Source: Planctomycetota bacterium (GTDB taxonomy: Bacteria; Planctomycetota; SZUA-567). Taken from it: a stretch of DNA of 5,561 nucleotides. The notes under the pieces are model-generated. The model was given only the letters and a program-made list of their open reading frames with translations. It did no database searches and was not told where the DNA came from. The position numbers and the translations under genes are program-made. Location: positions 1 to 5,561 of the forward strand of contig JAJBSZ010000100.1 of assembly GCA_020861125.1 (NCBI GenBank), given 5' to 3'. Shown here piece by piece: positions 1,044-5,561 of this stretch (position 1 is its first letter; each line of letters starts with the position of its first letter).

Positions 1044-1451
1044 TCAGGCCCCATCGACCAGATCCGTCAGCCGGGTGGCATCCAGATAGGCGTCGATGGT
1101 GTGGTTCAGGCCTTGCCAAAAGTTTATGGTCGGGCAGGTCGACGCCCGCCGGCAGGGGTTGGGGGTGCTGGTGAGGCAAGCCACCACCGCCACCTCGCCG
1201 TCCACCGCCCGGATGATGTCGCCGGCGGTGTATGCGGCGGGCTCCCGGGTCAGCACATAGCCGCCCTGTGCCCCCCGGGAGCTCCGGAGCAGTCCGGCCC
1301 GGATGAGCTGGCTGGCGATCTGTTCCAGATACTTGACGGAAATCCCCTGGCGCTCGGACACATCGCGGAGGGAAACGAATCCGTCCCGGCCGGCCGTCGC
1401 CAGGTCCACCATCAGGCGCAGGGCGTACCGGGTTCTGGTGGAGAATTTCAC
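1044..1451 (-). CDS. Rrf2-family transcriptional regulator, probable Fe-S sensor
   Basis: A 135-residue protein of normal Rrf2 length. The N-terminal winged helix is clear: MKFSTRTRYALRLMVDLA at the start, then ISVKYLEQIASQLIRAGLL (37-55) as the recognition region and GAQGGYVL (60-67) as the wing. Cysteines at 92, 100 and 106 (CX7CX5C) stand where IscR and relatives hold an Fe-S cluster; an IscR-like ligand His three residues after the last Cys is absent (TIN instead), so the fourth ligand, if any, differs. The start is GTG at 1451, overlapping the upstream stop as GTGA, with no good ribosome binding site, so translation probably depends on the upstream gene. As the last gene of a sulfur/Fe-S operon it most likely senses cluster or sulfur status and autoregulates the operon; this is inference. 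The operon promoter is outside the window. Confidence 0.92.
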   Translation of the reverse strand: MKFSTRTRYALRLMVDLATAGRDGFVSLRDVSERQGISVKYLEQIASQLIRAGLLRSSRGAQGGYVLTREPAAYTAGDIIRAVDGEVAVVACLTSTPNPCRRASTCPTINFWQGLNHTIDAYLDATRLTDLVDGA

Positions 1452-2311
1452 GGCGCGGTCCCGGGCGATGCGGTTGCGCCGGACGCGGCAAGGGCGTCGG
1501 GATCGGGATTGAAACTGCCGGTGCGGTAGCCCGCCAGATCCAGGGTCACCCGGCGGTAGCCCAGGGCGGTGAGCCGGTCCACCACCGCCTGGCGCCGCTC
1601 GGGCGCAGCGAGAAAGGCGATGGCGTCCGCCTCCGCTTCGATGCGGGCGGTGTCGCCGTGATGGCGGAGCCGGACCTGGCGGATCCCCAGGCCGCGCAGA
1701 TATGCCTCCGCCTCTTCCACCTGCCGGAGAGCGGCCTGGGTCAGGCCGTGGCCAAAGGGAAACCGGCTGGCGAGACAGGCGGCAGCCGGCAGATCGGCGG
1801 TGGGCAGGCCCAATTCCGCCGACCAGCGCCGGATCATCGCCTTGGTCATGCCCGCTTCACGGAGGGGTGCGCGCAGGCCGAGCTCGCGCATGGCCCGCAC
1901 CCCCGGGCGGTAGTCGTCGGCGTCGTCGGCGTTTTCCCCGTCCACCACCGTGCCGTAGCCCTTTTCCCGGGCCAGGACCACCACCTGGCCCATGCCCAGC
2001 CGCCGGCAGTGGTAGCAGCGGTCGAGGGGGTTGGACCGGATGTTTTCCTCAGCCAGGGCGTCCACCGCCAGTTCGAAGTGGGGCAGCCCGAGGGAACGGG
2101 CGATGGCGCGGGCGCGGTCCGTTTCCTCGGCGGCGTACAGGGCACCGGTTAGTGTGGCGGCCGCTCCGCCGACCCGGGCCGCTCGGGCCGCCAGGAGAGC
2201 GCTGTCGACGCCGCCGGACAGCGCGACCAGCGGCCGGTTCATCCCGGCCAGCAGGGCGTCCACCCGATCCCGGCGCTCCTGTTCCGTGGCGGTACTCATA
2301 TCTTCAGGCAT
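1448..2311 (-). CDS. larE: LarE-like PP-loop ATP-dependent sulfur transferase
   Basis: With the ATG at 2311 the protein has 287 residues, typical for LarE. The PP-loop SGGVDSALL is at 32-40, followed by RCYHCRR (98-104), DGENADDADDYRPG (125-138) and ACLASRFPFG (178-187). LarE adenylates a pyridinium carboxylate intermediate and inserts sulfur during synthesis of the nickel-pincer cofactor of lactate racemase; in Lactobacillus plantarum the sulfur comes from the enzyme's own cysteine in the ACLASR motif, here Cys179. Cys99 and Cys102 add a CxxC, giving three cysteines, the set associated with LarE homologues that carry a [4Fe-4S] cluster and use external sulfide. The start overlaps the hydE-like stop by 8 bases and the stop overlaps the Rrf2 start (GTGA). 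No larA, larB or larC is visible, so the nickel-pincer role is unproven and another substrate is possible. The family call is firm. Confidence 0.88.
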   Translation of the reverse strand: MPEDMSTATEQERRDRVDALLAGMNRPLVALSGGVDSALLAARAARVGGAAATLTGALYAAEETDRARAIARSLGLPHFELAVDALAEENIRSNPLDRCYHCRRLGMGQVVVLAREKGYGTVVDGENADDADDYRPGVRAMRELGLRAPLREAGMTKAMIRRWSAELGLPTADLPAAACLASRFPFGHGLTQAALRQVEEAEAYLRGLGIRQVRLRHHGDTARIEAEADAIAFLAAPERRQAVVDRLTALGYRRVTLDLAGYRTGSFNPDPDALAASGATASPGTAP

Positions 2312-3461
2312 TGCTATCTCCCTCGGTAGTGGCAGTGGCCGGTGCCGGGGCGGCATCGGGCCGGCGATGATGGAAATGCGGCGAGTCGCCCCGTTCGCCC
2401 CAGAGGATGCGTTCCTTGACGCTTGCGATGCGCAGGGTCAGGCAGGCGCGGCACTGGGTGGCGTTTTCCTCGAGGCAGGGTTTTCCCGCGTAGAGCTGGT
2501 AGTGTTTGCGGTGCTCGGTGTCGGTGACGTTGGGCATGATGACGTTGGCGCCGGCCAGGAGGCCCCGCTCCCGGCCGTCGTCCGCCAAGGCCTGCAGGGC
2601 GGTGGCGGCGGCGATGTTGACGTCATGGAGATGCAATCGGGTGACCGCGATCATGTTGAGTCCGAGGCGGAGCTGGCGCGCCGCGAATTCCGGGGTCACC
2701 GTCTGGCCGTGGCCGACGGGGGTGTCCGGGTGGTGGATATAGGGTCCCATGCCGATCATGTCCAGATCCAGTTCGCGGAACAGGCGGATGTCGTCGGCAC
2801 AGTCCGTCAGGGTCTGGCCGGGCAGGCCGCACATCACGCCACTTCCCACCTGGTAGCCGCAGGCGCGCAGGTCGCGGAGGCACGCGAGGCGGCGGTCGAA
2901 GCTGTGGTCCGGCGGATGCAAGGCCCTGTACAGCGACCGGGAGCTGGTTTCCAGGCGCAGGAGATAGCGGTGCGCCCCCGCTTCCCGCCAGCGGGCGTAG
3001 GTGTCACGGTCCTGTTCCCCCAGCGAGAGGGTAATGCCCAACTGCCCGCCGCTGGCGTCCGTTATCCGGCGCAGGATGCGGGCGATACTTTCGGTATGGG
3101 CGGCCGTGGCGATTTCACCGGATTGGATCACCACGGAACCGTACTGTTCGCGGTAGGCCCACTCCGCCAACGCCACCACCGCGTCCTCGTCCAGCGTATA
3201 GCGGACCAGATCCCGGTTGTCCCGCCGGATGCCGCAGTAGTAACAGTTTTTGCCGCAATGGTTGCCCATCTCGATCAGGCCGCGGAGACTCACCACCGGA
3301 CCGATAAGGCGAAGTTTCACGGCATAGGCCGCCTGGTGCAGCCGCGCCACGTCCGCCTCGGCTTCCAGGCCGAGGAGGAAGGCCATCTCATCGCGATCCA
3401 AAGCTCCCGGCGCGGCGGCGGCGCGGTCGAGGAGTGCAGTCAGGGAGTCGTCGTCAATCAT
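2304..3461 (-). CDS. hydE: HydE-like radical SAM protein ([FeFe]-hydrogenase H-cluster maturase family)
   Basis: A 385-residue radical SAM protein. CGKNCYYC (69-76) is the CxxxCxxC motif for the SAM-binding [4Fe-4S] cluster, followed by GIRRDN as in HydE. Further HydE-type stretches are IQSGE (112-116), TLSLGE (144-149), GLPGQT (212-217), GPYIHHPDTP (239-248) and GANVIMPN (304-311). C-terminal cysteines 329, 337 and 340 form CX7CX2C, matching the auxiliary cluster site I recall from Thermotoga maritima HydE. Known HydE acts with HydF and HydG to build the two-iron subcluster of [FeFe]-hydrogenase; neither partner is visible. A Leu sits in LRLET (168-172) where I recall His in T. maritima. The tail after about 358 is rich in His, Pro, Ala and Thr and looks disordered. 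The start overlaps the upstream stop by ATGA, with only a weak ribosome binding site. HydE family is very likely; a hydrogenase role here is uncertain, and an unassigned HydE paralogue is possible. Confidence 0.85.
   Translation of the reverse strand: MIDDDSLTALLDRAAAAPGALDRDEMAFLLGLEAEADVARLHQAAYAVKLRLIGPVVSLRGLIEMGNHCGKNCYYCGIRRDNRDLVRYTLDEDAVVALAEWAYREQYGSVVIQSGEIATAAHTESIARILRRITDASGGQLGITLSLGEQDRDTYARWREAGAHRYLLRLETSSRSLYRALHPPDHSFDRRLACLRDLRACGYQVGSGVMCGLPGQTLTDCADDIRLFRELDLDMIGMGPYIHHPDTPVGHGQTVTPEFAARQLRLGLNMIAVTRLHLHDVNIAAATALQALADDGRERGLLAGANVIMPNVTDTEHRKHYQLYAGKPCLEENATQCRACLTLRIASVKERILWGERGDSPHFHHRRPDAAPAPATATTEGDSNA
2318..2324 (-). promoter_or_regulatory. Shine-Dalgarno that fixes the LarE-like start
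   Basis: GAGGGAG lies 6 bases (ATAGCA) before the ATG at 2311. An in-frame ATG also exists at 2356, but it would add 15 residues (MPPRHRPLPL...) read out of frame across the hydE tail, resembling nothing in the family. The strong site selects 2311. Confidence 0.7.
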
Positions 3462-4558
3462 GATCGTCCGTCCACGGCCGGCGCGAGTGAATGGCTGCCG
3501 GTCCGTTCAATGATGCCGCCCGCCAGCAGGGCGTCGTCCCGGTACAGCACCGCGGACTGCCCCGGCGGCACTGCCGCGATGCCGTCGGGAAAATCCACCC
3601 GGCAGCCGCCGTCCGCCAGCGGCTGGACCCGGCAGGGAACGGCCCGGCCGGCGGACCGCACCTTGACCCGGGCGTCGAACGCCTCCTCGGGCCGGGCGGT
3701 AGACACCCAGTTCATGTCCCCTGCCGTCAGCCAGTGCCGGACGGTCTCCTGGCGGTCGCCCACCACCACGGTGTTGGTCTCCGGCACGATATCCACCACG
3801 TAGAGCGGCCGGCCGGCGGCCAATCCCAGACCCCGCCGCTGACCGATAGTGTAGTTCCAGCAGCCGTCATGCCGGCCGAGGATGCGGCCGGAACGGTCGG
3901 TAAAGGCTCCCGTCGCGGCGGGAAAGCCCAGGAGCTCCCGGTGGTCGCCGGCGTAGAAGTCCTGGCTGTCCGGTTTGTCCCGCACCGCCAGGGAGAATTC
4001 GCCCGCCAGGTGCCGCACCGCGTCCTTGGTGAGGTCGCCCAGAGGAAACAGACTTTCGGCCACCTGGTCCTGCCCCAGGCGGTAGAGAAAGTAGGACTGA
4101 TCCTTGGCCGCGTCGCGGGCCGTCAGCAGGCGGTGCCGCCCGTCCCGGTGGTCCGTCCGGACGTAGTGCCCGGTGGCGAACCGGTCATAGGACAATCCCG
4201 CCTCCCGGGCCAGCCGCGGCAGGACGCCAAACTTGACGGCGGCGTTGCAGCGCACGCAGGGGTTGGGCGTCCGGCCCGACCCGTATCCGCGGCGGAAGTC
4301 CTCGAGCACGATACGCTCGTAGTCGTCGCTGCAGTCGAGGACGCGATGGGGGATTCCCAGGTGGTCGCACACCCGTTGCGCCGCGGCGATATCCACTTCT
4401 TCCCCCGGGCCGAAGCAGGCGTCGCGGCTGCCGCCGAGGTAGCGGCCGTCCCGCCAGATGCGCATGGTAACGGCAGCCACCTCATGGCCCTGATTCCGGA
4501 GCAAGGCGGCGGCCACCGCCGAATCCACCCCGCCGCTCATGGCGACCAACACCTTCAT
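3458..4558 (-). CDS. MnmA-like PP-loop thiouridylase paralogue lacking the second catalytic cysteine
   Basis: A 366-residue protein, about the normal length for MnmA, the enzyme that adenylates U34 of certain tRNAs and replaces O2 with sulfur. Visible signatures are the PP-loop SGGVDS (8-13), TPNPCVRCN (97-105, Cys101 and Cys104), GHYVR (130-134), AKDQSYFLYRL (151-161), YTIGQRRGLGL (236-246) and a C-terminal beta-barrel region from about 250. Canonical MnmA has a second catalytic cysteine in a motif such as DSxxICF; here the aligned stretch reads KPDSQDFYAG (195-204), so that cysteine is replaced, probably by Tyr202. Loss of this residue, plus the operon setting, suggests either a distinct MnmA subfamily or a PP-loop enzyme acting on another substrate. 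The ATG at 4558 is supported by GGAGG and an ATGA overlap. The family call is firm; tRNA thiolation is not established, so no symbol is given. Confidence 0.9.
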   Translation of the reverse strand: MKVLVAMSGGVDSAVAAALLRNQGHEVAAVTMRIWRDGRYLGGSRDACFGPGEEVDIAAAQRVCDHLGIPHRVLDCSDDYERIVLEDFRRGYGSGRTPNPCVRCNAAVKFGVLPRLAREAGLSYDRFATGHYVRTDHRDGRHRLLTARDAAKDQSYFLYRLGQDQVAESLFPLGDLTKDAVRHLAGEFSLAVRDKPDSQDFYAGDHRELLGFPAATGAFTDRSGRILGRHDGCWNYTIGQRRGLGLAAGRPLYVVDIVPETNTVVVGDRQETVRHWLTAGDMNWVSTARPEEAFDARVKVRSAGRAVPCRVQPLADGGCRVDFPDGIAAVPPGQSAVLYRDDALLAGGIIERTGSHSLAPAVDGRS

Positions 4559-5561
4559 GCCGTACCTCCAACCGACGGCCGCTCGTGTTCCCGCACCCAG
4601 CCCAGGGTGCCGTCCCGCAGGGAAAAAACTTCGCCGGCATAGCCAGCGTCCCGCAGCAGCCGCGCCGCCGTCTCGCTCCGGACGCCGAACGGGCAGACGA
4701 ACACCAGCGGTAACCCTGGATCGAAGGCTGCCTGTTCACTGACGACCCGGTTCAGGGGCAGAACATGGGTCCGGGAAAAATCGCCCAGGGACACGTCGCC
4801 CGCTTCGCGGACTTCCACCACCTGCACTCGGGGGTCCCGGGCCAACAGGTCCTGGAATTCCGATGGGCTCAGCCGCGGCGGCGGCTGGCTGGCGGCGCGC
4901 TTGAGGCCGCAAAATTCCTCGTAATCCACCGGCCGGGTAATGCTGGGAGAAGGACCACAGACGGGACAGTCGGGATATTTGCGGATCGGGATCTCCCGGA
5001 AGCGCATGGTCCAGGCGTCCACCAGGAGGAGCCGCCCGGCGAGGCTGACGCCATCGCCCAGCAGGAGCTTCAGGGCTTCGGCCGCCTGCAGGCTGCCGAC
5101 GATGCCGGGCAGCACCCCCACCACGCCCTCCTCGGCGCAGGTGCGGACGGCGCCTGGCCGCGGCGGCTCGCGGAAAAAGCAGCGGTAACAGGGACCGTCC
5201 GGCAGACCGAATACACTCGCCTGGCCTTCGAAGCGGTGGATCGCCCCGAACACCAGCGGTTTGGACTGAAAGACGCAGACGTCGTTCACCAGATACCGGG
5301 TGGGGAAATTGTCCGACGCATCCACCACCAGGTCGTACTGGTGCACTATATCCATGGCGGTGGCGCCGGTCAGCCGGATGGGGTGGCCAATAATCTTGAT
5401 ATTCGGATTCTGGGCGGTCAGGCGGTCCCGCGCGGCGTCGACCTTGCTCCGGCCGACGTCGGCGGTGGTGAACAAAACCTGCCGCTGCAGGTTGGACTCG
5501 TCCACCGTGTCGTTATCCACCAGACCGATGGTGCCCACCCCCGCCGCCGCCAGATAGGGGG
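4555..5561 (-). CDS. ThiF/MoeB-type adenylyltransferase with C-terminal rhodanese domain (N-terminus outside window)
   Basis: The gene is read from the window edge; the first complete codons give PYLAAAG followed by VGTIGLVDND, the end of an E1-like nucleotide-binding fold, so the true start lies beyond 5561 and the GTG at 5538 is internal. Numbering from that GTG-encoded Val, the family signatures are DESNLQRQ (14-21), DASDNFPTR (73-81), zinc cysteine pairs CYRC (117-120) and CPVC (191-194), and the putative catalytic Cys134 in TCAEEGV. From about 223 to 327 there is a rhodanese domain with active loop CPFGVRS (Cys282). This is the MOCS3/Uba4-like architecture: the E1 part adenylates the C-terminal glycine of a small sulfur carrier (MoaD/ThiS type) and the rhodanese cysteine supplies persulfide sulfur. 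No carrier gene is visible. The stop overlaps the next start by ATGA. The family is certain; the carrier and pathway are not. Confidence 0.93.
   Translation of the reverse strand, partial: PYLAAAGVGTIGLVDNDTVDESNLQRQVLFTTADVGRSKVDAARDRLTAQNPNIKIIGHPIRLTGATAMDIVHQYDLVVDASDNFPTRYLVNDVCVFQSKPLVFGAIHRFEGQASVFGLPDGPCYRCFFREPPRPGAVRTCAEEGVVGVLPGIVGSLQAAEALKLLLGDGVSLAGRLLLVDAWTMRFREIPIRKYPDCPVCGPSPSITRPVDYEEFCGLKRAASQPPPRLSPSEFQDLLARDPRVQVVEVREAGDVSLGDFSRTHVLPLNRVVSEQAAFDPGLPLVFVCPFGVRSETAARLLRDAGYAGEVFSLRDGTLGWVREHERPSVGGTA
4565..4569 (-). promoter_or_regulatory. Shine-Dalgarno of the MnmA-like gene
   Basis: GGAGG lies 6 bases (TACGGC) upstream of the ATG at 4558, inside the last codons of the ThiF-rhodanese gene. 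It supports that ATG and shows the gene can recruit ribosomes itself as well as through the ATGA overlap. Confidence 0.75.

Follow-up and report, generated by a model that had tools for sequence, protein, structure and literature searches.

The DNA analysed, called the window below, comprises the 5,561 nucleotides at positions 1 to 5,561 of contig JAJBSZ010000100.1 (NCBI GenBank assembly GCA_020861125.1), and its minus strand carries an operon of five genes for a MoeB-rhodanese protein, MnmA, HydE, LarE and an Rrf2-family regulator. The MnmA belongs to a variant class, here termed F-type, without the cysteine equivalent to Cys199 of Escherichia coli MnmA, and genes of this class recur beside HydE in related genomes. 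The genes of the operon are:

4555..5559, minus strand: MoeB/ThiF-family adenylyltransferase with a C-terminal rhodanese domain, 5' end lost at the window edge (Pfam ThiF 221.3 bits, Rhodanese 27.2 bits)
3458..4558, minus strand: MnmA of the 'SQDF' clade, F-type (366.1 against an NCBIfam equivalog cut-off of 284)
2304..3461, minus strand: HydE, radical SAM H-cluster maturase (TIGR03956, 315.7 bits against a cut-off of 254.6)
1448..2311, with a longer open reading frame from 2356, minus strand: LarE, ATP-dependent sulfur transferase of the CxxC-C type (TIGR00268, 267.7 bits against a cut-off of 150)
1044..1451, minus strand: Rrf2-family regulator (Pfam Rrf2, 130.8 bits)

All five sulfur-chemistry genes listed in the initial annotation were found, and the successive overlaps of 4, 4, 8 and 4 bases that it gave were read directly at the junctions, the 8 bases between HydE and LarE holding only for a LarE start at the 16th codon (2311) rather than at 2356. 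The candidate start at 2311 is preceded by GAGGGAG, which resembles a ribosome-binding site. The junction sequence is ATGA at both MoeB/MnmA and MnmA/HydE, and GTGA at LarE/Rrf2. These overlaps, together with recurrence of the gene order, make joint transcription of the five genes likely, in agreement with the earlier suggestion that they are made together; a scan for promoters and terminators gave results near chance (one promoter-like site against 0.4 expected, four terminator-like sites against 2.5). The suffix '-like' is too weak for MnmA, HydE and LarE, since all three exceed NCBIfam equivalog cut-offs, and MoeB-rhodanese and Rrf2 are matched at the level of Pfam domain and superfamily only. 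The MoeB-rhodanese protein has two CxxC pairs and the rhodanese loop CPFGVRS; its 334 residues, truncated at the 5' end, compare with 391 in the full-length relatives of genomes G289 and G005 (loci L111 and L005), and its best score against the MoeB/MoeZ equivalog profiles, 323.1 against a cut-off of 449 bits, is that of the truncated gene. HydE carries the radical SAM motif CxxxCxxC (Cys69, Cys73 and Cys76) and a C-terminal Cx7Cx2C at residues 329/337/340, and comparison with the PDB also matches it to HydE structures. The three cysteines of LarE are kept in 19 of 19 aligned LarE sequences, 12 rows without an SGG[VIL]DS match being left out. A Planctomycetota-related anaerobe is the probable host, because the nearest named HydE relatives come from metagenome-assembled genomes of Planctomycetota (best identity 69%).

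The window MnmA exceeds the MnmA cut-offs, retains the transfer RNA (tRNA)-binding domains by Pfam and the CxxC pair at residues 101/104, and keeps the full MnmA fold in a predicted model. Tyr202 occupies the place of E. coli Cys199. At the equivalent position cysteine is missing from 31 of 33 F-type rows, the two exceptions reading SQDFCGGD, against its presence in 34 of 34 canonical MnmA rows. As judged from these alignments, a persulfide route at position 199 cannot operate in F-type MnmA. Loci L180 and L199 encode MnmA whose motif reads SQDFVAGG or SQDFIAGG; these may represent a further lineage that lacks the final cysteine, and L180 stands outside the main F-type clade on the tree. Among the literature matches listed, which mostly exclude subscription papers, no MnmA without Cys199 was described, and neither MnmA nor LarE was found joined with HydE.

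Genome contigs were scanned with a HydE alignment, and the best 80 of 565 confirmed places were kept as loci. The full order MoeB>MnmA>HydE>LarE>Rrf2 recurs in one further genome, G289, and the first four genes (MoeB>MnmA>HydE>LarE) stand in the same order in G005, so that the arrangement extends beyond one strain and is not due to chance. HydE has MnmA close by in 17 of the 80 loci (L002, L003, L004, L005, L007, L010, L011, L012, L013, L020, L022, L026, L030, L033, L041, L053 and L060) and directly adjoins it on the same strand in 14 of the 17. The order is reversed (HydE>MnmA) in L013, L022 and L026; MnmA is divergent with NadA in between in L003, is separated from HydE by an esterase-like open reading frame in L007, and is of the canonical type in L053, where the order is MnmA>LarE>HydE. 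LarE lies inside the locus in 6 of the 80 (L002, L005, L007, L013, L018 and L053). The search put forward in the initial annotation, for co-occurrence of the families and for a constant partner within 20 kb, was run in part, by clustering the open reading frames of the 80 loci and naming chosen neighbours. The commonest extra neighbour of MnmA-linked HydE was NadA, present in 6 of 17 loci, with LarE, MoeB and Rrf2 less frequent. NadA>MnmA>HydE occurs in L004, L010 and L012 and MnmA>HydE>NadA in L060, while L013 has LarE>BioB>HydE>MnmA and L018 a BioB-LarE fusion beside HydE; the neighbours added at other loci, NadA, BioB and ThiH, are all iron-sulfur (Fe-S) enzymes. When the longest-contig sizes of the 120 nearest HydE proteins were compared with those of 119 of the 120 nearest MnmA proteins, 12 values, one of them that of the window, were common to both, whereas 24 shifted lists gave 0 to 2; four of the other 11 values are those of contigs of G005, G011, G030 and G289, which were already known.

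MnmA, HydG and LarE were counted in 40 genomes, representing 40 of the 80 loci, and the linkage rate in this set is enriched because it was chosen to hold all 17 MnmA-linked loci. Three of the genomes have no MnmA over the cut-off, and duplicate loci were omitted from typing. The 44 MnmA proteins typed comprise 27 of the F-type and 17 canonical, distributed over 37 genomes as F-type only (20), both (6) and canonical only (11). Linkage to HydE was seen for 16 of the 27 F-type genes and 1 of the 17 canonical genes (Fisher p 0.0004, uncorrected for relatedness and with linked loci over-represented by choice). A strict DNA pattern for the F motif matched 9 of 294 genomes of Planctomycetota, the phylum of G005, once in each; all nine matches fall within MnmA places, and the reversed control gave none in the rows shown. 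A HydE match at E <= 1e-60 is present in 7 of these 9 genomes against 38 of the 294 overall (p 1.1e-5). Among the nine, G299 carries HydG and, next to MnmA, a contig-cut HydE, and G196 has HydG without a HydE match at that threshold. The pattern gives a lower bound, having missed G236 (SQDFSGGD), G328 (SQDFVAGG) and G274 (SQDFIAGG); the last two both have HydE, and G236 has F-type MnmA and HydG but lacks a HydE match at E <= 1e-60.

The standard partners of these enzymes are mostly present in the relatives and sit away from the operon. HydG exceeds its cut-off in 34 of the 40 genomes and was also found in G196, G236 and G299 of a chosen subset of 9; in other chosen subsets, HydF was found over its cut-off in 18 of 23 genomes, an [FeFe]-hydrogenase domain in 22 of 23, LarC in 27 of 31, a LarA domain in 12 of 20 and ThiS/MoaD in 6 of 7. 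In G005, none of HydG, HydF, hydrogenase, LarC, LarA and ThiS/MoaD shares a contig with the operon, whose MnmA and LarE are the sole copies over the cut-off, and in G289 HydG, hydrogenases, LarC, LarA and ThiS are located outside the operon. LarC and LarA are both present in G002, G005, G030 and G289, and G001 has LarA without a LarC match. Diversion of HydE away from hydrogenases was considered and rejected on the frequency of the [FeFe]-hydrogenase domain in the genomes examined. G289 also has a second, distant HydE on another contig (L112:451-1956, 45% identity, one in-frame stop reported), for which assembly contamination is possible.

The Rrf2 protein has three cysteines spaced C-x7-C-x5-C, and the copy in G289 has the same cysteines. 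Two genes of the cystathionine-lyase/synthase type lie divergent from moeB in both G005 and G289 (read by eye in G289), those of G005 scoring under each curated cut-off. The conserved cysteines and these neighbours would fit regulation by sulfur or Fe-S status. Between the divergent cystathionine-type and moeB genes of G005 lies a 40-base palindrome (L005:7683-7722, arms 85% complementary), a possible Rrf2 operator; when its half-sites were sought in nine loci and in the window, only one more match, a weak one in L011, came up. An operator common to the relatives was rejected, as the G289 stretch has no such palindrome and the half-sites gave only that match.

In the simplest reading, the HydE, LarE and MnmA of the operon are the usual ones of these cells, brought together according to their chemistry and regulation. 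With moderate confidence, the genes are read as a co-regulated set of oxygen-sensitive sulfur and Fe-S enzymes under Rrf2, each serving its own known pathway. In the window's own host, MnmA would then make 2-thiouridine at position 34 of tRNA (s2U34), HydE would contribute to the H-cluster of [FeFe]-hydrogenase and LarE to the nickel-pincer nucleotide, MoeB-rhodanese would charge a carrier of the ThiS/MoaD type or pass sulfur on, and Rrf2 would sense Fe-S or sulfur status. The enzymes would share sulfur supply, oxygen sensitivity and regulation, with no common product. The pairing of MnmA with HydE may simply reflect joint regulation of oxygen-sensitive enzymes, or a gene order that was inherited.

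Because the F-type is the sole MnmA found in many genomes and has the complete fold of the tRNA enzyme, it most likely still makes s2U34. How MnmA transfers sulfur to U34 is contested between a Cys199 persulfide and a sulfide bound to a [4Fe-4S] cluster with Cys199 as ligand, according to the accessible part of one review (PMC11784392), and for TtuA and NcsA carriage of sulfide by a [4Fe-4S] cluster is proposed in the part available of another source (PMC10067955). By analogy, a [4Fe-4S] cluster held by the CxxC pair and a third ligand, with Cys48 as the best-conserved candidate, and carrying the sulfide, would be a natural alternative for the F-type. It is tentatively suggested, at somewhat less than even likelihood, that HydE-linked F-type MnmA forms a third mechanistic class that has no persulfide cysteine and takes sulfide from [4Fe-4S], with specialisation for H-cluster maturation alongside HydE possible in genomes that also have a canonical MnmA. 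A natural MnmA clade without the Cys199 equivalent would allow the contested mechanism to be tested with no need to mutate the E. coli enzyme, and the recurrent association of a gene for tRNA thiolation with one for H-cluster maturation is unexplained.

Several observations weigh against this account of ordinary enzymes in separate pathways. The second, canonical MnmA in 6 of the 37 typed genomes and in G289 would leave the F-type free for another job there, and its status as the only MnmA elsewhere is possibly an assembly gap, because the relatives are mostly metagenome-assembled genomes of untold completeness. F-type MnmA and HydE are paired in either gene order, a closer association than shared regulation would strictly require. 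Cys48 does not single out the F-type, being present in 82% of canonical MnmA. The partners are also incomplete: HydF is not over the cut-off in G011, G020, G025, G035 and G289 (of 23 genomes), HydG is not over it in G001, G004, G010 and G036 and occurs as fragments only in G011 and G025 (of 40), and LarC was not found in G001, G013, G022 and G035 (of 31). Close relatives do not all share the operon's LarE, which lowers confidence slightly; in G030, LarE and MnmA-HydE are on separate contigs, and G011 has no LarE over the cut-off. The palindrome of G005, as noted, was not found in the G289 stretch.

That the MnmA-HydE linkage is the functionally meaningless inherited gene order of one bacterial lineage is unlikely. 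On the HydE tree, scored for 65 of 82 rows with 17 rows near contig ends omitted, linkage to MnmA is clustered, needing 10 changes against a shuffled mean of 16.6; 17 of the 19 MnmA-linked rows fall in one clade of 33 rows (28 scored), and the 26 genomes bearing F-type MnmA in the first set come nearly all from those same organisms. The tree nevertheless still requires ten gains or losses, both gene orders occur, and two linked loci, L053 (with its canonical MnmA and MnmA>LarE>HydE order) and L060, lie outside the main clade.

Less probable again is a reading of F-type MnmA as a dedicated partner of HydE that supplies sulfur for H-cluster assembly or for the HydE auxiliary cluster and has no tRNA role, at least beside a canonical MnmA. 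The biased linkage of the two types, the reversed pairs, the HydE or HydG found in the F-motif genomes and the canonical copies retained beside the F-type all speak for it. Against it stand the 20 genomes in which the F-type is alone, the 11 genomes, all with HydE, that have canonical MnmA alone, the retained fold and tRNA-binding domains, and G236 with its HydG and no HydE match. F-type MnmA and HydE may also both simply mark anaerobes, and the H-cluster maturation literature, in the excerpts available among the matches listed, names no PP-loop enzyme. The single dedicated pathway to a new sulfur-containing cofactor or modification, proposed in the initial annotation from the overlapping genes and matched by the five-gene order of G289, is very improbable because the standard partners are found elsewhere in most relatives, and LarE, MoeB and Rrf2 vary between loci.

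Other features were seen at the loci. L007:7192-15644 is a large Fe-S and sulfur cofactor cluster with the run NadA, MnmA, esterase-like open reading frame, HydE, BioB, ThiF-like, LarE, a weak FabK-like match and ThiH. BioB and LarE are joined in single proteins of 616 and 588 residues at L018:10957-12807 and L123:4146-5912, with opposite domain orders, and these fusions suggest that a LarE-type sulfur transferase may serve biotin synthase. A LarE-LarB fusion of 512 residues is encoded at L128:1868-3406, and LarC lies close by on that contig. Immediately upstream of LarE in G030, L113:5242-6327 encodes a PP-loop protein with ThiI-like and NFACT-R_2 RNA-binding matches, for which an NCBIfam search gave no match at 1e-10. 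The contig of L002 is filed as Candidatus Adiutrix, and its MnmA and HydE group with Planctomycetota, by gene transfer or misbinning. An Rrf2 gene overlaps the HydE start on a Spirochaetales contig (L029:7998-9495). A search for plasmid-borne HydE returned 27 records, none above 60% identity, and a 548-residue HydE match, P0003, was set aside for an internal duplication that is perhaps an assembly artefact. In the window itself, a partial metallophosphoesterase-like gene lies downstream of the operon at 2-868 on the minus strand (Pfam Metallophos 18.2 bits, under the cut-off of 21.5).

The types of MnmA were reportedly defined by Shigi in 2020, as cited in reviews. Both types in those reviews, CxxC-C and DxxC-C, retain the third cysteine, as far as the available text of the two goes (PMC8584467, PMC11784392). 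The window MnmA resembles the CxxC-C type, [4Fe-4S]-bound in Thermus thermophilus, in its PP-loop, CxxC pair, PRC-barrel, C-terminal barrel and full fold, and differs in having the Tyr of SQDFYxGD in place of the third cysteine and a loop three residues shorter. The Rrf2 protein shares with IscR and CymR the Rrf2 domain and three cysteines, and cystathionine-type genes lie near the operon in two relatives, but it scores under both curated cut-offs (118.5 against 207.55 bits for IscR, 103.5 against 195 bits for CymR). The window LarE has the three cysteines in CxxC-C layout of the [4Fe-4S]-type LarE of Thermotoga maritima, and several relatives' genomes hold LarC and LarA; the T. maritima cysteines are Cys92, Cys96 and Cys172 in the part of the source available (PMC9283937), against the CxxC spacing of the window protein, and the window larE has the genes for HydE and MnmA as its neighbours instead of larB or larC. 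The window hydE is likewise joined to mnmA and not to hydG or hydF, unlike the gene of the [FeFe]-hydrogenase maturase, but its product agrees with that maturase in exceeding the NCBIfam cut-off and in its radical SAM and C-terminal cysteine motifs, and most relatives examined also carry hydrogenase and HydG.
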